Translations under genes and position numbers: made by a program
The notes under the pieces: model-generated
Database searches by the model: none
Told to the model about the DNA's origin: nothing
Seen by the model: the letters and a program-made list of their open reading frames with translations, nothing else
Shown: positions 3,125-17,963 of the stretch, piece by piece
How the letters are laid out: each line of letters begins with the position of its first letter
How positions within the stretch are numbered: the first letter of the stretch is position 1
Source: Lachnospiraceae bacterium
Lineage (GTDB): Bacteria > Bacillota > Clostridia > Lachnospirales > Lachnospiraceae
DNA: 20,144 nucleotides
Direction: 5' to 3'
Assembly: GCA_017477005.1 (NCBI GenBank)
Contig: JAFUXY010000113.1
Location: 1 to 20,144, forward strand

Positions 3125-4007
3125 GAGTATCACCTACCTTTATATTGATGAACGCAAGGACAGCCACCATGATGAAGACGAGGAAAGCCATCGCTGATGC
3201 GTATCCGAAGTTTGCAACTCCAGTTCCGAAAGAATTGTTGTAAATGTAATGCGACATTGTAATTGTGGAATTCGCCGGTCCGCCATTTGTGAGATTGACA
3301 GACTCGTCGAACAGCTGCAGGGTTCCGTTGATCGACATGATAAAGGTCATGACGATGGTTGGACGAAGCAACGGAACTGTGATGCTCCAAAATGTTGTCC
3401 ACGAAGAGGCACCGTCAATCTTTGCGGCTTCGTATACCGCGTAATCGATATTTTGAAGTCCAGCCAGGTAGAAGACCATATTGTACCCTGTCCAGCGCCA
3501 GATCAGAGCGAGGATGATGACGATTTTCGCACTAGCCGGATGTCCAAGGAAGTTGTAGGGTTCCGACAGAATATGCAAATTCACCAAAAAGCTATTGATC
3601 AGTCCGTTCGTTGAGAACAGAGACTTAAAAATCAATGCGTATGAAACAAGTGACGTGGCACAAGGCAGGAAGATCATAGTTCGAAACCATCCCTTTGCCA
3701 TCAGATGCCGGTTGTTTAGAATCTGTGCTAAAAGAATGGCCAGCACCAGCATGATCGGTACCTGAATGATCAGATAAAGGAACGTGTTTCCTATGGATGT
3801 CACGAAGACCTTGTCCTGAAACATCCGCGTATAGTTGAATGAGAATGGATTGGCCCATTTCATAGCTGCGCTTGAACCCGTTCGGAAAGAAGTGATAAAC
3901 GCTTCCACCATCGGGTAAAAGCTCATAATGAAAATCATCACGGTTGCAGGGGTAACAAAGGCCCATCCGGCTCTCCCCTGCTTCGCTTCAATATTTCCTT
4001 TCTGCAA
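3117..4007 (-). CDS. Carbohydrate ABC transporter permease (CUT1, MalF/LacF-like)
   Basis: A 296-residue permease with about six membrane segments: TPATVMIFIMSFYPMVEAF first, then the TSFRTG periplasmic region. The EAA loop is YEAAKIDGASSWTTFWSITV and the last segment is AMAFLVFIMVAVLAF. The start is the TTG at 4007: AAAGGGGG lies 7 bases upstream and the product begins MQKGNIEAKQGRAGW, a normal cytoplasmic N-terminus. A longer frame from 4088 would overlap the end of the binding-protein gene. It sits 40 bp after the binding protein and overlaps the second permease. With them it forms the galactoside importer inferred from the operator shared with lacZ. Confidence 0.93.
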   Translation of the reverse strand: MQKGNIEAKQGRAGWAFVTPATVMIFIMSFYPMVEAFITSFRTGSSAAMKWANPFSFNYTRMFQDKVFVTSIGNTFLYLIIQVPIMLVLAILLAQILNNRHLMAKGWFRTMIFLPCATSLVSYALIFKSLFSTNGLINSFLVNLHILSEPYNFLGHPASAKIVIILALIWRWTGYNMVFYLAGLQNIDYAVYEAAKIDGASSWTTFWSITVPLLRPTIVMTFIMSINGTLQLFDESVNLTNGGPANSTITMSHYIYNNSFGTGVANFGYASAMAFLVFIMVAVLAFINIKVGDTRD

Positions 4008-4047
4008 AGCATTTCCCCCTTTCAAAGCTTTGGCATTCGAAAATTCC

Positions 4048-5406
4048 TCAATTTCCCCCCATCTCAAACACAGTCTGATCCTGGGCATCTTTCAATGCGT
4101 CTCCAACGGCCATGCCGTTTACCATATTGACGATGGCTGTGTCGGTGTTGTTTCGCAGGCTGTAGTGGAAATCGCTCTGCTCAATGGGTTTGACCTTCGA
4201 GCTCATCTCCACAATGTCCGAATAGATTGGCTGTCCGTTGAAATAATCCACTCCTTCCTGATACACATCAGATTGTCCTGCGGAAATGCAGCAGGTGATC
4301 ACACCACCGTTTTTCAATGCGTTGTCGTAGGTCTCGGTGCTGCCGCCAAAGGTTTTGGCAAGAAAATCCTTCGCCAATTCCGGATTCTTGCAATTGGAGG
4401 TAATGTAGAAAGAAGAACCACCGTTGCTGGCGTATCCTTCGTCGCCGGAAAGAGTCGGCATAGAGGTAATCGCCCACTTTCCGCTATTGTCCGCAACTTG
4501 CTCGATCGTCGGGATAATCCAGTTTCCGTTCATGACACCGCACACCATATCTCCTACAATAGATTCATTGGTATAGCCGGTCCAGTCATTTGGCATATAC
4601 AGCACGTTTTCATTGATCATCTGGGCAATTGTCTCATAGATTTTGACAACAGTTTCGTTGTCTGTCAGATTTGGTTGTCCATCCTCGAACTGGGAAACAC
4701 CCTCTGCCTGCAGCATAATATAGGGCATATCATTTCCGTCTGCCGGCATAGAAACCAGATATTTTCCGCTCTTTTCATAGACGTCTTTGCCGATTTCAAT
4801 AAAACGATCCCAAGTAATCCCGGTCATATCGTCGAGAGAATACCCGCAATCTTCCAGGATATCCGTGCGATAAGCCGCTACTACGGTGCCGTTGTCCAAA
4901 GGCACGCCAAAATGTTTTCCATCGATCATAGAGTAGGATAGCTTTTCCTCACCAAAATCACTCCAGTCGATGTCTGCGTCATCTACGTCCAGCCATGCAT
5001 CGGGATAATCCACGTTGAATTTGTGGAAATAATGATCCTGAAACAGAACGATGTCCGGCAGCTGTGAATAATCGCCGGAAGAACCTGCGAGAGTAATCGC
5101 ATTTTCCACGTCCGAGGATGCAGATTGCTCCACGATGTTCAGTTCGAAATTGGAATCCACATTGTTCTTGTAATCCTCGCCTGCCGCTTCGAGAGCGGGG
5201 ATATTGAAGCTGGCGTCCCAGGCATAGACAGACAGGGAGTTGTCTCCTCCTTCCGCGGAGGAATCATCGGAAGATGCTTCTTCCGCAGAATCGCCGGACG
5301 AAGTCGAACCGGTGTCGCTTCCCCCCCCTGAGCTTCCGCCGCAGCCTGCCAGAAGGCTACCGGTCATTGCCGCAATCATCAACATGGATAACACCTTTTT
5401 TTTCAT
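4048..5406 (-). CDS. Sugar ABC transporter substrate-binding lipoprotein (extracellular solute-binding family 1)
   Basis: A 452-residue secreted lipoprotein. MKKKVLSMLMIAAMTGSLLAGC is a lipoprotein signal with lipobox LLAGC, followed by a Gly/Ser/Asp/Glu-rich linker to about residue 55, then the binding domain (SVYAWDASFNIPALEAAGEDY, GVPLDNGTVVAAYRTDILED, ASNGGSSFYITSNCKNPELA). The YAWD...FNI opening resembles lactose-type binding proteins, fitting the beta-galactosidase nearby; substrate assignment is inferred. The start at 5406 is chosen because AAAGGAG lies 8 bases before this ATG and a normal signal peptide starts there; the longer frame to 5457 would bury it. It is first in an operon with two permeases. 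Expression probably depends on the AraC-type regulator through the operator at 5557-5585. Confidence 0.93.
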   Translation of the reverse strand: MKKKVLSMLMIAAMTGSLLAGCGGSSGGGSDTGSTSSGDSAEEASSDDSSAEGGDNSLSVYAWDASFNIPALEAAGEDYKNNVDSNFELNIVEQSASSDVENAITLAGSSGDYSQLPDIVLFQDHYFHKFNVDYPDAWLDVDDADIDWSDFGEEKLSYSMIDGKHFGVPLDNGTVVAAYRTDILEDCGYSLDDMTGITWDRFIEIGKDVYEKSGKYLVSMPADGNDMPYIMLQAEGVSQFEDGQPNLTDNETVVKIYETIAQMINENVLYMPNDWTGYTNESIVGDMVCGVMNGNWIIPTIEQVADNSGKWAITSMPTLSGDEGYASNGGSSFYITSNCKNPELAKDFLAKTFGGSTETYDNALKNGGVITCCISAGQSDVYQEGVDYFNGQPIYSDIVEMSSKVKPIEQSDFHYSLRNNTDTAIVNMVNGMAVGDALKDAQDQTVFEMGGN

Positions 5407-11552: not shown

Positions 11553-12914
11553 ATGGAAACAAATATGACTACGGGGCGGCCGATGGGGCTGATTTTTCGC
11601 TTCACGGTGCCGCTGTTTTTGGGAAACGCATTTCAGCAAATTTATAATATGGCAGACTCTATGATTGTCGGCAAGTTTGTCAGCGCCAACGCACTGGCTG
11701 CGGTGGGTTCTACCGGGACGATCATGTTTTTGGTATTAGGCATCGCGATCGGACTGACGACGGGTTTTTCGGTGATGACGAGCCAGTATTATGGAGCAGG
11801 AAATTCGCAGGGTGTCCATTATTCGGTCACAAACGGCATTTTGATGTCGATTGTTTTTACACTTTTTTTGACGGCGGTGTCGCTTTTTTCGATGCCAGGG
11901 CTGCTACGATTGATGAACACACCGGAGGATATTTTTGACGATGCGCTGCGTTATATTTCGATCATCTGCGCGGGAACGGTGGCGATCATGTTCTACAACC
12001 TGTTTGCTGCCTATTTGCGCGCCATCGGAAACAGCAAAACGCCCTTGTTCTTCCTCGTGTTTTCCGCCATATTGAATATCCTGCTGGATCTTTTGTTTAT
12101 TGTGAGCTTCCACATGGGCGTGGCGGGCGCGGCGCTTGCGACCGTTGCTGCGCAGGGGCTGTCTGCCGTCCTATGTGCGATTTATATTTATCGGCATGTC
12201 GACGCGCTGCGGCCTGACAAAACAGACTGGCATTTCGTGGGAACCTGCGCCGCAAAACAGCTATCCATCGGCATTCCTATGGCTTTGGAAACGGGGATTA
12301 CTGCGAGTGGTACGCTGATCATGCAGGCCGCCTTGAATATCTACGGGACGTTGTCTATTGCGGGCAGTACTGCCGCCTACAAGGTTATCAACTTTTTGTC
12401 GCAGGGCTTGTATTCCCTCGGGCAGACGATGGCCAGTTATGCGGGGCAGAATTTCGGTTCCGGAAAGATCGAACGGATTTGGTCTGGTACCAAGGCGGCT
12501 ATGGTATTGGTGATTATCTACTCGCTTTCGGCCGCAGGACTGGGCGTGGTCTTTCTGCCGCATCTGATCTCGTTGTTTTTCTCCGGCGACGTGTCTCTGG
12601 CGGAGGTACTGCCCTGGGCCAAAATCGCCCACCACGAATGCGCTCTGTTTTACCCGTTTCTTGGCGCCATCTTTGTCTATCGCAATACCCTGCAGGGCTG
12701 CGGCTTTAGCGTGCAGGCGATGGCGATGGGTGTTTTTGAATTGGGCGCCCGCATCTGCATGGCGCTGCTTTCGATGCATATTCACAGCTATCCGCTGGCG
12801 ATTGGTGCCGATCCATCCGCTTGGTTGGCCGCCGGAACCTTGGGGTATATTTTGTATCGGTATCTACTCGGAAACAAGCATAAGTCCGTGGTACAGGGTG
12901 ACGGAGAGGGCTGA
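11553..12914 (+). CDS. MATE-family multidrug/organic cation efflux transporter
   Basis: A 453-residue polytopic membrane protein with about 12 helices in two related halves, normal for MATE exporters, which use a sodium or proton gradient to expel cations or drugs. Family features include the opening GRPMGLIFRFTVPLFLGNAFQQIYNMADSMIVGKFV, the stretch LAAVGSTGTIMFLVLGIAIG, and the second-half segment YSLGQTMASYAGQNFGSG. The start at 11553 is chosen because AAGGA lies 7 bases upstream; a longer TTG frame from 11532 lacks a comparable site. It is GC-rich compared with the following ATPase gene (43 of 60 bases G+C at 12121-12180). Substrate is unknown, and a sugar-export role in this locus cannot be excluded. 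Confidence 0.92.
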   Translation: METNMTTGRPMGLIFRFTVPLFLGNAFQQIYNMADSMIVGKFVSANALAAVGSTGTIMFLVLGIAIGLTTGFSVMTSQYYGAGNSQGVHYSVTNGILMSIVFTLFLTAVSLFSMPGLLRLMNTPEDIFDDALRYISIICAGTVAIMFYNLFAAYLRAIGNSKTPLFFLVFSAILNILLDLLFIVSFHMGVAGAALATVAAQGLSAVLCAIYIYRHVDALRPDKTDWHFVGTCAAKQLSIGIPMALETGITASGTLIMQAALNIYGTLSIAGSTAAYKVINFLSQGLYSLGQTMASYAGQNFGSGKIERIWSGTKAAMVLVIIYSLSAAGLGVVFLPHLISLFFSGDVSLAEVLPWAKIAHHECALFYPFLGAIFVYRNTLQGCGFSVQAMAMGVFELGARICMALLSMHIHSYPLAIGADPSAWLAAGTLGYILYRYLLGNKHKSVVQGDGEG

Positions 12915-12917
12915 AAT

Positions 12918-13161
12918 GGAGATTTTATGGTAAACAGGGGCGCAAAAGTTGGAGATTTTGTGATATTCGGCGTTGAAAAAGTTGGAGATTTCGTGATGAA
13001 AGGCGGTGCAAGAACTGGAGATTTTGTGATACAGAAGGATGAAAAGGCGGAGATTTTGTGGTAAACAGGGGCACAAAAGTTGGAGATTTTGTGATATTCG
13101 GCATTGAAAAAGTTGGAGATTTTGTGATATCATGGCAGAGAAATGATGGAGATTTTGTGAT
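12918..13161. repeat. Eight-unit 33-bp tandem array upstream of the ATPase gene
   Basis: The 14-bp core GGAGATTTTGTGAT, or a 1-2 base variant, starts at 12918, 12951, 12984, 13017, 13049, 13082, 13115 and 13148. All steps are 33 bp except one of 32. Between cores are 18-19 variable, purine-rich bases. The spacers after units 1 and 2 are repeated with single changes after units 5 and 6, indicating a block duplication. The array begins 3 bp after the MATE stop and ends just before the GAGG binding site of the ATPase, so it fills the 259-bp gap. Each core contains GGAG five bases before GTG (ATG in unit 1). The period equals 11 codons or about three helical turns. Confidence 0.93.
13104..13133 (+). 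promoter_or_regulatory. Candidate promoter inside the repeat array
   Basis: TTGAAA (13104-13109), an 18-base spacer and TATCAT (13128-13133) lie in the spacer of unit 6 and at the end of unit 7. Transcription would start near 13140, leaving units 1-6 upstream as possible binding sites and unit 8 in the leader. Earlier units lack a matching -10. Confidence 0.45.
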
Positions 13162-13173
13162 GAGGTATCGAAA

Positions 13174-14532
13174 ATGCCGAAGATCAAGCTGAAAAGAAAA
13201 TTGTACGAAGAGCTGTTGAAATGGAAGAAGGAATATGCTCCTGAGTATGTCCTATTCATTAAAGGAGCGCGTCGTGTCGGAAAGACAACTGTGGCAGAAG
13301 ATTTTGGCCGAAATGAGTATAGGTCCTATGTGACGATCAATTTTCAGTCTGCAAACGATACGATTCGTGATTTGTTTGTGAACAGTTTGTTGGATTTGGA
13401 TTACCTGTACAATGTGATTCAGATGCAGTACGGAGTGAAGCTGTATCGCCGGGAATCCTTGGTTGTCTTAGATGAAATACAGCTTTATCCATTGGCTAGG
13501 CAGGCATTGAAAACACTGCTTGCAGACGGAAGATATGATTTTATTGAGACAGGTTCTTTGGCGGGCATTCAGAAAAAGAGCAAGAAGTCCGAGATATTGA
13601 TTCCTTCCGAAGAATATGCGATCGAAATGTTTCCATTGGATTTCGAAGAGTTTTTGTGGGCGTTGGGTGATGAAATGACGATGCCCATGATGCAAGCCAG
13701 TTTTGACAAAATCAAACCTCTGGGAGCCCTGCACAAAGACATTTTTCGAAAGTTTCGAGAATATATGTGCGTTGGCGGAATGCCGCAGGCCGTTGTGAAA
13801 TATTCGGAAGAAAAAGATTTCGAAAGGGTGGATTTTGCAAAAAGAGAGATTCTTGCTTTATACAGGAATGATATCAAAAATCAGAGGGAAGAAAACAGCG
13901 CTTATATTGGAAATATTTTGGATAATATACCATCGGAGCTGTCGAAGCATAAAAAGAGCAGTACGTTCAAATTGTCACATATAGACAAAAATGCCAGATA
14001 TCGCGAATATAGTGGATCTCTGAACTGGCTTATGGAGGCTATGATCGTGAATGTCGCAAGAAATGTCACGGATCCGAGTCCGGCTTTGACACTCACAATG
14101 GACGATGAACGGTTCAAGTGCTATTTATTGGACACTGGCCTGTTGATCAATCTCAGCTTTGGCGATGGATCCTATATGGACAACGAGTTTTACAAAGCGA
14201 TTTTGACGGACAAGCTTCACATCAACGAGGGGATGTTTGTGGAGAATGTGGTGGCTCAATGCCTCCGCAGCAATGGTCACAAAGTTTTGTTTTATATAGA
14301 ATACAACGACCGAGGAAAGCCTTTGATGGAGATTGACTTTTTGATCCGAAAGGAAAGAAAAGTAATCCCGATTGAAGCGAAATCCGGAAGATCCTTTGCG
14401 ATGAAATCTCTTCAAAATTTCAAAACAAAATTCACCAATCGAGTAGGCATGCAATACATGCTTTATGATGGAGATGTGAAGCGGGACGGAGAGGTACTGT
14501 ACCTTCCGTATTACATGGCGTCTATTTTGTGA
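13174..14532 (+). CDS. AAA-family ATPase with C-terminal PD-(D/E)XK-like domain (DUF4143 type)
   Basis: A 452-residue protein of the widespread AAA_14/DUF4143 family, of uncertain cellular role. Walker A is GARRVGKT (31-38), Walker B VVLDEIQ (97-103), followed by ETGSLAG (125-131), a sensor-like segment. The C-terminal part has GMFVENVVAQCL and then D388, E401 and K403 in MEIDFL...IPIEAKSGR, the layout of the PD-(D/E)XK nuclease fold; many relatives are not proven nucleases. The ATG at 13174 has GAGG 8 bases upstream, directly after repeat unit 8. It is clearly AT-richer than MATE (23 of 60 bases G+C at 13201-13260 and again at 13921-13980), suggesting transfer together with its array. The next gene is close behind and may be co-transcribed. 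Confidence 0.9.
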   Translation: MPKIKLKRKLYEELLKWKKEYAPEYVLFIKGARRVGKTTVAEDFGRNEYRSYVTINFQSANDTIRDLFVNSLLDLDYLYNVIQMQYGVKLYRRESLVVLDEIQLYPLARQALKTLLADGRYDFIETGSLAGIQKKSKKSEILIPSEEYAIEMFPLDFEEFLWALGDEMTMPMMQASFDKIKPLGALHKDIFRKFREYMCVGGMPQAVVKYSEEKDFERVDFAKREILALYRNDIKNQREENSAYIGNILDNIPSELSKHKKSSTFKLSHIDKNARYREYSGSLNWLMEAMIVNVARNVTDPSPALTLTMDDERFKCYLLDTGLLINLSFGDGSYMDNEFYKAILTDKLHINEGMFVENVVAQCLRSNGHKVLFYIEYNDRGKPLMEIDFLIRKERKVIPIEAKSGRSFAMKSLQNFKTKFTNRVGMQYMLYDGDVKRDGEVLYLPYYMASIL

Positions 14533-14549
14533 CCGGGGGAGAATGCGGT

Positions 14550-15110
14550 ATGAATGCAGATAGAATAAACAAACAAATGCTTCAAATCGAGATCGGGGAA
14601 AAAGGGACGCCCTTATTTTATACGGAAACTGTGAATATAGTCGGTCAGTACCGAAGGCTGAAGAGAAAACCGACAAGAAAGCTGATCAATTATTTTGTTC
14701 AGCTAAAACTCAATATGGCGATCTGCCTGGCTGTTCTGGCGTTTTCGATTTGGAGCGGCTGGACGTGGGGGTGGGGAGCGATAGAAATAGCAGGGAGTGT
14801 CATCATGCTCTTTTGTATCATACTCAATGCGTCTTTTTTGGCGAGTTTCATTCGGCTCAAAAACAATTTGCTCAAAGATGAGAGGACTTCGGTTTTGACC
14901 TTGGACGACAAAGGTATTGAGTTAAACAAATCAAACGCCCAGATCGTTTGTATGAGTTGGGAAAATGTGGACTTTGTTCGTAGCTTCAAGGAGACCGTTT
15001 GCTTTTTCGCCAAGGACGAAATGGGGTTTGTTATCACTGTAGCAAAGCGTTATGAAAAAGATATTTTGGAGTATATTCAAAGAGTACATCCCGCATTGCG
15101 GGTGATCTGA
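14550..15110 (+). CDS. Small membrane protein with YcxB-like C-terminal domain
   Basis: A 186-residue protein with two adjacent membrane helices (MAICLAVLAFSIWSGW and IEIAGSVIMLFCIILNASFL, about residues 52-105). A cytoplasmic C-terminal domain (LTLDDKGIELNKSNAQ, then MSWENVDFVRSFKETVCFF) follows the pattern of YcxB-like proteins, whose function is unknown. The ATG at 14550 is preferred: GGGGGAG lies about 8 bases upstream, while a GTG at 14529 overlapping the ATPase stop has no binding site. It follows the ATPase by 17 bp and is probably in its transcript. The family call is from pattern only. Confidence 0.75.
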   Translation: MNADRINKQMLQIEIGEKGTPLFYTETVNIVGQYRRLKRKPTRKLINYFVQLKLNMAICLAVLAFSIWSGWTWGWGAIEIAGSVIMLFCIILNASFLASFIRLKNNLLKDERTSVLTLDDKGIELNKSNAQIVCMSWENVDFVRSFKETVCFFAKDEMGFVITVAKRYEKDILEYIQRVHPALRVI

Positions 15111-15135: not shown

Positions 15136-17859
15136 TTATGCTGACTCCAACGCCTCCTGAATCTTCTCGACCAACTCCAAATAATCAGAAACGAATCCCG
15201 GATAGAGATTTTTGATCAAATCCGCTTTCCCGTTTTTTGCGGCTTTCTCCAGAGACAATGCCTTTTCGGAAAGCCCGAACGCGCCTATGGTTTTCGAAGA
15301 GCTTTTCAAGGAGTGAATATTGATTTCAAACCCGTGCCAATCGCCTTCTTCATAGCAGATGTCCAACTCTGCATGTTTTCGCGGACAGATTGCCGCATAA
15401 TCAGAAAGCACATCCATGTAGAATGCGATATTTCCGCCGCAGAAGCGCAGAGCCTTGTTTGTATTGATTCCCCATTCATTTAGTCTATTTATCATGATTT
15501 CATCCCTCAAAGCAGGATATACCGAGTCGATGATCCCATCCATTTCATCCGAGGCAGGAGCAAATTCCAAAATTTTATCCTCTGCCGTTTCTTCTGGGTC
15601 TGGAGCAAATTCCCAAACCCTATCCTCCGCTGTTTCCTCCGGCGCGGCAGCAATCTCCCTCGCCTTCTCGCCCGCTTCGTCCTTCGCGGCTTCCCGCTCC
15701 GCGATATCCTTGGGAAGCCATTTTTTCAAGATCTCTTCAAGCTGCCGCACTTCCATAGGCTTTGACAGATAATCATCAAATCCGGCGGAAAGATACCTTT
15801 CCTTGGCATCGTTCACAGCATTGGCGGTAAGGGCGACAACCTTTGTATCGTCCGAAAGAAGCTGTTCTTGTTTTAGTTTCCTGAGCGTTTCTATGCCATC
15901 CATTTTTGGCATCATGTGGTCTAGCAAAATGACATGGTAATGCTCTGCTTTCAGGCGTTCGATGGCGTCAAATCCCGATCTGGAGGTCTGTGCTTGAATC
16001 CCAAACAGTCCCAGAAGATTTTCTGCGACTTTGAGGTTCATTTCATTATCGTCTACGACCAACACCCTTGCATGCGGTGCACGGAGCGATTCGGCGCGGT
16101 TTTTCTTTCGGCTTTGCGCAAGTCGTCTGGAATAATTTCCAATCGGCGTCTCATCTGAAATCTTCTGTTGAATGAGGAAAGAAAAAGTGGAACCCACGCC
16201 GTACTCGCTTTCCACACGGATTTCGCTGTCCATCAGTTTCAAAAGATTTGTCACGATGGACATCCCGAGTCCGGTTCCCTCGATGCTGTGGTTTTTCACC
16301 TCGTCCAGCCGTTCGAATGAGGCGAAGAGCCGCTGCGTGTCCTCCTTGCGAATACCGATGCCGGAATCCTCCACGGAAACATACAGCCAAACAGCGTTTC
16401 CCTCCTGGCGTTGTTTTCGAATGGTGAAACGCACAAATCCCGATTCGGTATATTTGACAGCGTTGGTCAGCAGGTTCATAATCACCTGTGCAATCCGCAC
16501 ATCGTCGCCTTCCATCTTGGCCGGCAAAGCTTCGTCCACATCCACCGAAAAATCCAGCCCCTTGTCCTTCGCCCGTTCCGCAACGGAGACGACGAGGTTG
16601 TTGATCATGGAGGCCGTGTCGTATACCACGGGGACAATCTCCATTTTTCCTTCTTCGATCTTCGAAAAATCCAGGATGCTGTTGATCAGCGACAGCAGGG
16701 TCCTTCCGGCGTTTCGGATATTCGAAGAATGCTCCAGGATTTTTTCATCGTCTGTCTCTCTCAGAATCATCTCGTTCATCCCGAGAACAGCGTTGATTGG
16801 CGTGCGGATCTCGTGAGACATACTCGACAGGAAGGAGGATTTGGCTTCGCTGGCTGCGACCGCCCGCTCCGAGACAATGAGCAGTCGTTCTCTGTCGTCC
16901 CGCTCCCTTTTGGAACGTATGAGGATGGCCGCAACCGTGGAAATCAATATTACCATGACGAGCAGGAACAATACGACATTCAGAAAAATAATATTAATAA
17001 ATTCCCTGTTGATCGCGGTGGGCGCGCTCCTGACTACCAGATACCAACCGAGATATTCTACATATTTTGTCACGGTAAACTCGTCGTTTCCGGTGGTTTG
17101 GTAAGTGTACTCGTCCGTTTCCTTTTTGCTCAGTACATTCTCATCCAGCCATGCGTTTTCAATATTGATATCCTCGGTATCCACCTGTACAAGACCGTTT
17201 CTGTCCACGAGGTTGATCTTTACACCGTATTCCTGTTCGGATGTCAGAAAAAGCTCCTGCAGATTTGTCATCTGAACACCGACGCCGCATACGCCCAGAA
17301 GTTCCCCGTCGTTATCCTCGATCCGGGCGTTGACAAAGACCGTCCACTGGCCCCGATTCATCTCATCACTGTCTACATCCAAATCGTATGGCTTGTTCTT
17401 CTCCAGAAAAAGAGAATACCAGATATCGTGCGGATCGTTTTTGGGGTCTACGATTTTGTTCAGTCCTTCATAGGTGTAATACCGCCGACTCTTTGCGGAT
17501 ACCAAAAAGGCCGAGTCGTATTCCAGTCCATCTTTCAGGCTGCTTAAATATTTCTGCATAATAGCCACAGCCTCGTTTTCTTCTATAACATCCTCGTTTT
17601 CCAGAAAATCTGCGAGGAAATCGTCGCAAGCCATGGTTCTGCCGACAACGATTGGCTCATTCAAGCTGTTGGCTATAGAATCATAGATGCGGTAGGTCAG
17701 CATCGTATCGATTTCCTTTGTGTTTTCCCTCGCCAACTTCGCCAACGAATAAATGGATACAATGATCGCCATCAAGAAGCTGACGGAAACCGCTGCGAAA
17801 ATGGGAAACATGCTTTTGTCTCTGTCGGTTTTTTCAACCTTTTTCGTCTTATTTACCAT
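15136..17859 (-). CDS. Hybrid sensor histidine kinase (Cache-HisKA-HATPase-REC-HPt)
   Basis: A 907-residue membrane kinase. TM1 is about 18-39, an extracellular Cache-like sensor follows (SRRYYTYEGLNKIVDP, GVCGVGVQMTNLQ), and TM2 is about 288-314. HisKA holds His349 in SMSHEIRTP. The ATPase domain has NLLTNAVKYTE, DSGIGI and GTGLGMSI. The receiver has VVDDNEMN and phospho-acceptor Asp647 in LLDHMMPKMDG. After a repetitive acidic linker, an HPt domain carries His849 in IHSLKSSSKTIGA. All phosphorelay residues are present, but no output domain, so phosphate must pass to a separate regulator. The ATG at 17859 is chosen because AAAGGA lies 6 bases upstream; the frame to 17955 has no binding site and covers the regulatory region. 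It is divergent from the LytTR regulator, a plausible but unproven partner. Confidence 0.93.
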   Translation of the reverse strand: MVNKTKKVEKTDRDKSMFPIFAAVSVSFLMAIIVSIYSLAKLARENTKEIDTMLTYRIYDSIANSLNEPIVVGRTMACDDFLADFLENEDVIEENEAVAIMQKYLSSLKDGLEYDSAFLVSAKSRRYYTYEGLNKIVDPKNDPHDIWYSLFLEKNKPYDLDVDSDEMNRGQWTVFVNARIEDNDGELLGVCGVGVQMTNLQELFLTSEQEYGVKINLVDRNGLVQVDTEDINIENAWLDENVLSKKETDEYTYQTTGNDEFTVTKYVEYLGWYLVVRSAPTAINREFINIIFLNVVLFLLVMVILISTVAAILIRSKRERDDRERLLIVSERAVAASEAKSSFLSSMSHEIRTPINAVLGMNEMILRETDDEKILEHSSNIRNAGRTLLSLINSILDFSKIEEGKMEIVPVVYDTASMINNLVVSVAERAKDKGLDFSVDVDEALPAKMEGDDVRIAQVIMNLLTNAVKYTESGFVRFTIRKQRQEGNAVWLYVSVEDSGIGIRKEDTQRLFASFERLDEVKNHSIEGTGLGMSIVTNLLKLMDSEIRVESEYGVGSTFSFLIQQKISDETPIGNYSRRLAQSRKKNRAESLRAPHARVLVVDDNEMNLKVAENLLGLFGIQAQTSRSGFDAIERLKAEHYHVILLDHMMPKMDGIETLRKLKQEQLLSDDTKVVALTANAVNDAKERYLSAGFDDYLSKPMEVRQLEEILKKWLPKDIAEREAAKDEAGEKAREIAAAPEETAEDRVWEFAPDPEETAEDKILEFAPASDEMDGIIDSVYPALRDEIMINRLNEWGINTNKALRFCGGNIAFYMDVLSDYAAICPRKHAELDICYEEGDWHGFEINIHSLKSSSKTIGAFGLSEKALSLEKAAKNGKADLIKNLYPGFVSDYLELVEKIQEALESA
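15557..15646 (-). repeat. Two 45-bp tandem repeats in the hybrid kinase linker
   Basis: Units starting at 15557 and 15602 each encode a 15-residue acidic segment, PEETAEDRVWEFAPD and PEETAEDKILEFAPA, between the receiver and HPt domains. The frame is kept. It is a flexible linker that can change length by slippage. Confidence 0.8.
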
Positions 17860-17892
17860 TAGAAATCCTTTCGTTTCTTGTTTTTCCCATCG

Positions 17893-17921
17893 AGTATAAG
17901 AATCATTGTCATCATTTTCAA
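17893..17921 (-). promoter_or_regulatory. Promoter of the hybrid histidine kinase
   Basis: On the minus strand TTGAAA (17921-17916), a 17-base spacer and TATACT (17898-17893) precede the kinase start by about 34 bp. Confidence 0.65.
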
Positions 17922-17928
17922 TAAACCT

Positions 17929-17963
17929 GTGACAAGCCGCAAGGTTTTGTGACAAGTGGCAAT
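17929..17963. promoter_or_regulatory. 20-bp-spaced direct repeats between divergent signalling promoters (candidate LytTR site)
   Basis: TGTGACAAG, two bases, GCAA occurs at 17929 and again at 17949 (TGTGACAAG identical, then CC or TG, then GCAA). Paired direct repeats about two turns apart are the usual target of LytTR regulators such as AgrA. The site ends a few bases before the weak -35 of the response-regulator promoter and starts 7 bp from the -35 of the divergent hybrid kinase, so it could control both. Confidence 0.6.

Follow-up and report, generated by a model that had tools for sequence, protein, structure and literature searches.

What role might a row of near-identical short sites play directly in front of an ATPase gene? 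The question is raised by a Lachnospiraceae contig (JAFUXY010000113.1, assembly GCA_017477005.1), whose 20,144 nucleotides are here called the window. In it, eight 14-bp cores repeat about every 33 bp and run up to the gene for a DUF4143-type ATPase that matches the PADLOC defense profile PDC-S01. It is virtually certain that an array of this period is associated with one clade of such ATPases, although part of the clade is without it. On balance, we favor the view that the array is an iteron-like operator that the ATPase itself would recognize, thereby controlling its own gene.

The eight cores carry at most two mismatches to GGAGATTTTGTGAT, five are exact, and all lie on the forward strand within 12918–13161, with successive steps of 33, 33, 33, 32, 33, 33, and 33 bp. 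Dinucleotide shuffling of 12900–13173 (1,000 shuffles) gave a mean of 0.028 cores and a maximum of 2, and no further core within two mismatches occurs elsewhere in the window on either strand. Tandem Repeats Finder recovered the array independently (period 33, 12917–13161 in its longest row), and self-matching of the entire window at lag 33 gave one segment scoring at least 20, which is this array. Across the remainder of the assembly (2.6 Mb in 538 contigs, 76.4% complete), five single cores with one mismatch are scattered, and the reversed pattern gives one. The layout described in the first-pass annotation, including the single 32-bp step, the start 3 bp past the end of a MATE transporter open reading frame (ORF) at 12914, and the last core set against the ATPase ribosome binding site, is borne out by these searches and coordinates. 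That annotation also proposed selection or recent copying of the core, and there are signs of both: cores 1–3 recur as cores 5–7 in a 131-bp duplication with 76 of 81 bases identical, which makes recent copying the origin of part of the array, and the contrast between cores and spacers among loci, described below, points to selection.

Whether the array belongs to the ATPase gene was examined at loci picked by protein alone, with a clade gene defined by a profile score of at least 180. An upstream region of 330 bp passed the period test if its best local self-match at lags 32–34 beat the maximum over lags 20–79 in all 50 dinucleotide shuffles. Such an array precedes 77 of the 102 clade genes and 1 of 41 distant DUF4143 ATPases; three midscore genes, two of which pass, were kept apart, and the 102 omit pattern-fetched loci, the window itself, and loci from the contig scan. 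By sample, the passes were 25 of 27 in the window's family, 3 of 3 in its own genome, 18 of 18 in the genomes of loci found by the two-core scan described below, 6 of 10 in the phylum of a Treponema genome, 6 of 9 on plasmids, and 19 of 26 in viral contigs. The passing plasmid loci come from Agathobacter, Collinsella, Fusobacterium, Glaesserella, Vibrio, and Prevotella, with Segatella in the gene-first set (from which late-profile-start matches, upstream regions below 150 bp, and duplicates were excluded), and the failing ones come from Ruminococcus, Phocaeicola, and Vescimonas. The top lag alone fell at 32–34, 3 of the 60 lags, for 73 of 102 clade genes versus 5 of 41 distant ATPases. In a first comparison within the family, covering the 26 of 30 loci where a simple rule located the gene, ATPase relatives at 35 to 50% identity already had the 33-bp period upstream, with cores of other sequence. 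Set totals vary by analysis (78, 80, 102, and 121) with the sets and limits used.

Among control upstream regions of other ORFs (mechanically called, at least 150 amino acids, some perhaps not genes), 11 of 157 passed; 8 of these belong to divergent neighbors of ATPases, 7 of which have a top lag score equal to that of the ATPase's own region, and 3 lie in one locus, L022. A motif-chain spectrum, which takes in pattern-chosen loci with a laxer cut, peaked once, at 32–34 bp, in 102 array-positive regions; the peak was slight in the 19 clade regions without an array and missing from 43 distant ones. A gene-blind scan of 911,247 bases (60 contigs or contig starts of genome G201 and a whole S. copri plasmid) found four segments scoring at least 20 at lag 33, each directly before a clade ATPase, and three at lag 32, of which one lies 322 bp before an ATPase scoring 186 and two are of low complexity. 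That DNA holds six ATPases scoring at least 180, and the one without such a segment (L232, 30403–31609) matched only from profile position 32. Three further clade ATPases of the window's own genome (L056, L057, and L058) each have their own 32- to 33-bp array; the three more distant DUF4143 ATPases tested there fail. One distant DUF4143 ATPase elsewhere (L155) has three copies of CGCCAAACAGCAAAGT in 23-bp steps before its start, and, judging from this sequence, other DUF4143 subfamilies may have arrays of different period.

Searching from the core leads to the same gene. The first-pass annotation had suggested looking for the core at about 33-bp spacing; two adjacent window cores so spaced occur on 6 contigs among 84,980 species genomes, from Treponema, Spirochaetaceae/Spirochaetes, and Lachnospiraceae, and in five of them the array leads into the start of the same ATPase. 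In three (L018, L020, and L023) a long ATPase ORF follows; in L019 the contig stops after the first ATPase codons, and L021 has only the front part of the gene. The exact pattern of two adjacent window cores was not found in viral contigs. A second core type, GGGGATTTGCG, forms ten arrays in ten of 397 family genomes, nine of them directly before an ATPase (two of these ATPases being split into two frames), and its reversed pattern is found in none of the 397. Both these matches and the gene-first counts support the annotation's assignment of the array to the ATPase gene.

What is general is the step and not the spelling. The annotation had treated the 14-bp core and its spacing together; the step of about 33 bp (32 to 34 bp) is constant, and the core differs among ATPase groups, each of which has its own, which rules out one universal core. 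We compared cores with proteins in 75 arrays with a chain score of at least 9, 65 of which were not fetched by pattern. In these 65, core similarity was high only at 70% ATPase identity or above. Among ordered pairs whose ATPases are at least 60% identical, with core columns defined on one array and the phase set on the whole unit, the mean match probability was 0.69 in core columns versus 0.41 in the spacer, and core columns exceeded spacer in 91 of 96 pairs. An earlier contrast of 93% versus 33% (228 unit pairs, six loci) was biased, the units having been picked by their match to the core and four of the six loci by the core's pattern. At the level of sequence, these comparisons establish that same-orientation sites spaced 32 to 34 bp apart, commonly at least three, are the usual upstream region of the clade, and that the period holds across phyla, whereas the spelling of the core follows the ATPase.

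The part of the protein that goes most closely with the core is a winged-helix-like region, residues 236–335. Its partial correlation with the core was 0.166 in the 65 arrays (0 of 499 permutations as large), against 0.066 for residues 166–235 (9 of 499), 0.042 for 6–165 (52), and 0.009 for 336–452 (174); in all 75 arrays the values were 0.154 (0), 0.077 (4), 0.058 (9), and 0.028 (71), respectively. This pattern is what recognition by the winged helix predicts, with descent only partly controlled. The annotation had named the ATPase or its PD-(D/E)XK-like domain as the possible reader; the link to the ATPase holds up, and the correlation favors the winged helix over the nuclease domain. Pfam AAA_14 and DUF4143 match the protein at 80.1 and 76.9 bits, above the curated cutoffs of 27 and 28.1, and the PDC-S01 profile covers residues 5–451 of 452 (model positions 2–431 of 439; E 2.6e-101); all 53 sequences of our alignment A2, the window's ATPase among them, match PDC-S01 models. 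In the C-terminal domain, E357, E386, E401, and K403 are invariant and D388 is present in at least 90% of 77 aligned sequences; we take these to be the catalytic E, D, and E-x-K of a PD-(D/E)XK motif, making the domain a predicted nuclease. In the structural model, the ATPase domain and winged helix appear arranged as in SSO1545, CED-4, and NLRs, and the protein models as a STAND/NLR-type ATPase joined to a PD-(D/E)XK nuclease. The ATPase domain also aligns with ORC/Cdc6 chains, and the Foldseek matches include the maltose-system entry 8bob. A sequence search of the PDB gave a single match (E 0.17), which we did not accept as a relative.

Array anatomy was charted in 61 arrays with a chain score of at least 9, which requires three sites. 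Copies number 3 in 38 arrays, 4 in 15, 5 in 7, and 7 in 1, the last being the window's array minus its weakest copy; two-site chains occur in 11 of 80 regions, and the three-copy minimum is an effect of the score limit. Steps are 33 bp in 121 cases, 32 in 23, 34 in 10, and 31 in 1, and the median distance from the end of the last core to the projected protein start is 27 bp. The sites share one orientation without dyad symmetry (the core matches its own complement at no more than 4 positions). Repeats that share an orientation, keep a nearly constant spacing, and sit beside the proposed reader's gene are also the marks of iterons. Promoter-like sites occur in 42 of the 61 regions versus 9 of 61 shuffled ones, and the best site overlaps the array in 31 of the 42. 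The window's site is weak taken alone, one being found against 1.1 expected by shuffling; its layout relative to the cores recurs in L018, L020, and L023. Two chain groups occur in 8 of 80 regions, some probably by chance, and in L028 and L158 two different 33-bp arrays stand in series before one ATPase.

We propose that the core would be read by the winged-helix region, and that spacing of about three helical turns would put several ATPase protomers on one side of the DNA, where their STAND-type ATPase domains could let them bind jointly. Given that most promoter-like sites overlap the array, binding would keep transcription of the gene low, and the nuclease would stay harmless while DNA bound. 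Were binding lost, for instance in phage infection, expression would rise and the nuclease would be released. The last two steps are inferred from predicted promoter positions and the defense annotation, and the link to phage is suggested by the PADLOC match. A fuller version, in which an NLR-like ATPase-nuclease is assembled on a private promoter array with its gene silenced and its nuclease inactive until infection breaks the DNA-bound state, and in which lineages re-spell the lock, keep the three-turn pitch, and coevolve array and winged helix as lock and key, is rather doubtful.

Several observations weigh against an operator read by its own ATPase. By the strict test, 25 of the 102 clade genes have no clear array, and in a sample from the window's phylum 0 of 9 passed (4 of 9 had a top lag of 32–34), which counts against the general claim. 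By eye, some array-negative genes have short repeated words at 33 bp, which we did not count. Operon position gains no support as an explanation of the negatives: a same-strand ORF of at least 80 amino acids ends within 60 bp of the gene for 2 of the 19 genes without an array and 4 of the 61 with one. Arrays also stand without the gene. In 150 genomes of the window's family, the window core matched only the window's own array and one in genome G068 (L014), where the 3 kb retrieved contain no ATPase and a Fic-family gene lies upstream; one GGGGATTTGCG array (L275) stands alone, the next gene, about 250 bp on, starting by eye like another P-loop ATPase; and the stretch retrieved for L022 holds two arrays and no ATPase, the closest match to the window's ATPase in that genome having an E value of only 2.5e-11. 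The first-pass annotation had held that arrays away from ATPase genes, or homologous ATPases without arrays, would argue against the association; both exist, at low frequency. In addition, with 10.5 bp to the turn a 33-bp step makes 3.14 turns and not exactly three; the segment correlations are small, and some part of them comes from common descent of the entire locus; and the promoter-like site lies before the array in 6 regions, after it in 5, and is absent from 19 of 61, so that no one repression geometry fits all loci. As for L022, its two near-identical arrays (about 2383–2560 and 3940–4070) consist of GGAGATTTTGTGAT cores followed by GGGGATTYGCG words, which resemble the core of another ATPase group, and toxin-antitoxin-like genes lie close by; the neighbors encode a helix-turn-helix protein and a weakly matching MqsR-like/SocA-Panacea pair.

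The varied promoter positions, with arrays before, across, or after the promoter-like site, would suit an array that serves mainly as an assembly platform in the manner of plasmid iterons or a partition centromere, gathering ATPase protomers by handcuffing or into a filament or ring, with any transcriptional effect a by-product. Same-orientation sites without a dyad, near-helical spacing, copy numbers that reach eight in the window, and the alignment with ORC/Cdc6 chains are likewise consistent with it. A platform, however, would need neither an array end so near the projected start nor the overlap with promoter-like sites in 31 of 42 regions, and we think it unlikely. The arrays without a gene could instead be empty or vacated sites of a selfish unit in which ATPase and array move jointly, the nuclease or recombination between cores inserting them at arrays or removing them from there. 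In Treponema and Lachnospiraceae, the window's core accompanies ATPases that share 80 to 84% identity with the window's and have different neighbors, so that gene and array seem to travel together; the gene is present on plasmids and in viral contigs, and broken ATPases lie behind intact arrays in L273 and L277. In L169 (G201:C74), matching array copies stand before the start and across and after the stop codon, so that recombination could excise the gene and leave a solo array. Yet few loci have own-core copies past the gene (5 of 58 at p<=0.02, most of these weak and L169 alone at full strength), which excludes them as a general feature and makes a selfish unit quite improbable.

Action as RNA, with the repeats forming a protein-bound or structured 5' leader, would be compatible with the cores that follow a promoter-like site (core 8 in the window and, by eye, cores in L049 and L036). 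It is very improbable: since most promoter-like sites overlap the array, the cores upstream of them would stay untranscribed; divergence is greater in spacers than in cores; and Rfam at its gathering threshold matches nothing in 12600–14700. Neutral tandem duplication finds some support in the 131-bp duplication and could still hold for single copies, but clade-wide recurrence of a shared period in different sequences and the core-spacer contrast between loci leave it scarcely credible as an account of the arrays. The related idea of a repeated peptide is ruled out by steps of 32 and 34 bp (33 of 155), which break the reading frame; the count of open frames (53 of 61 versus 43.3 expected) is uninformative. 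Self-recognition of an operator is the reading to which we return: rows in their own spelling before most of the relatives examined, in very different bacteria, suggest a control switch in which each protein reads the row before its own gene.

Coordinates of the features are collected in Table 1. Some surroundings of these loci deserve mention. A 23-bp repeat, GTCTACTTTTCTTGACTGCTACA (at most 4 mismatches), lies just before the ATPase array in L035, L040, L043, and L130, ending a 42-bp-period stretch in L043 and L130; it may resemble the end of an insertion element, in which case these arrays may be an insertion hot spot. On an Agathobacter rectalis plasmid (L123), a MATE transporter gene precedes the ATPase, as in the window. 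Farther along the window, a 45-bp repeat (15497–15686) lies within a hybrid histidine kinase gene (15136–17955, minus strand).

Table 1. Features of the array and the ATPase gene in the window
Feature	Coordinates	Strand	Remarks
Complete array, 33-bp period	12918..13161	+	Core matches and Tandem Repeats Finder
Core 1	12918..12931	+	2 mismatches
Core 2	12951..12964	+	Exact
Core 3	12984..12997	+	1 mismatch
Core 4	13017..13030	+	Exact
Core 5	13049..13062	+	1 mismatch; comes after the sole 32-bp step
Core 6	13082..13095	+	Exact
Promoter-like site	13104..13133	+	TTGAAA-18-TATCAT, TG before second hexamer; 10/12 matches
Core 7	13115..13128	+	Exact; in promoter-like spacer, last base in second hexamer
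Core 8	13148..13161	+	Exact; adjoins ribosome binding site
Ribosome binding site, GAGG	13162..13165	+	Read by eye; ATPase ATG at 13174
ATPase gene, 452 amino acids	13174..14532	+	AAA_14 residues 26–161, DUF4143 238–405; PADLOC PDC-S01
Winged-helix-like region, residues 236–335	13879..14178	+	Helices and strand hairpin in model; proposed core reader
PD-(D/E)XK-like nuclease, residues 336–452	14179..14529	+	Conserved residues in alignment

PDC-S01 is an unvalidated single-gene candidate, validation being pending for most PDCs, and was ranked the fourth most common defense across all prokaryotes (PMC12988326); in a rumen survey, no other individual locus was as frequent (PMC13356809). The window's ATPase belongs to the same profile family, and the portions of these accounts available to us mention no upstream array or target DNA. 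Nor did we find a target or trigger described in the parts of the literature that we could consult, and we recognized no open report of such arrays before these genes; most subscription papers and preprints fall outside that coverage, so this is no proof of absence. A clade-wide DNA partner with a readable code would be a direct handle for testing PDC-S01-type ATPases.

Known systems share parts of this design. In plasmid iterons with their Rep proteins, and likewise in ParR-parC, sites that all point one way at close to helical spacing lie next to the gene of the protein that reads them; in the window, that protein would be a STAND-type ATPase carrying a nuclease domain. MalT is a STAND ATPase that binds repeated directed sites, as the window's STAND-type ATPase is inferred to do; it is an activator of sugar genes with a separate helix-turn-helix domain. 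Orc1/Cdc6 places an AAA+ domain and a winged helix on origin DNA, as proposed here, but is a replication initiator, and its structural matches had lower Z than STAND matches and a low TM-score. Another parallel is found in RptR defense islands, in which three direct repeats overlap the promoter of the defense locus and are bound by the product of its first gene (PMC12255303). The window's array similarly consists of direct repeats overlapping a promoter-like site. As far as the available text describes it, RptR is a small separate repressor acting on adjacent 9-bp repeats with a 6-bp palindrome; that palindrome, TAGCTA, is absent from 12900–13173, and the window's sites lack a dyad and lie 33 bp apart, with the ATPase-nuclease itself as presumed reader. 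If this reading is correct, a STAND-type ATPase-nuclease would here be under the control of the DNA of its own promoter.
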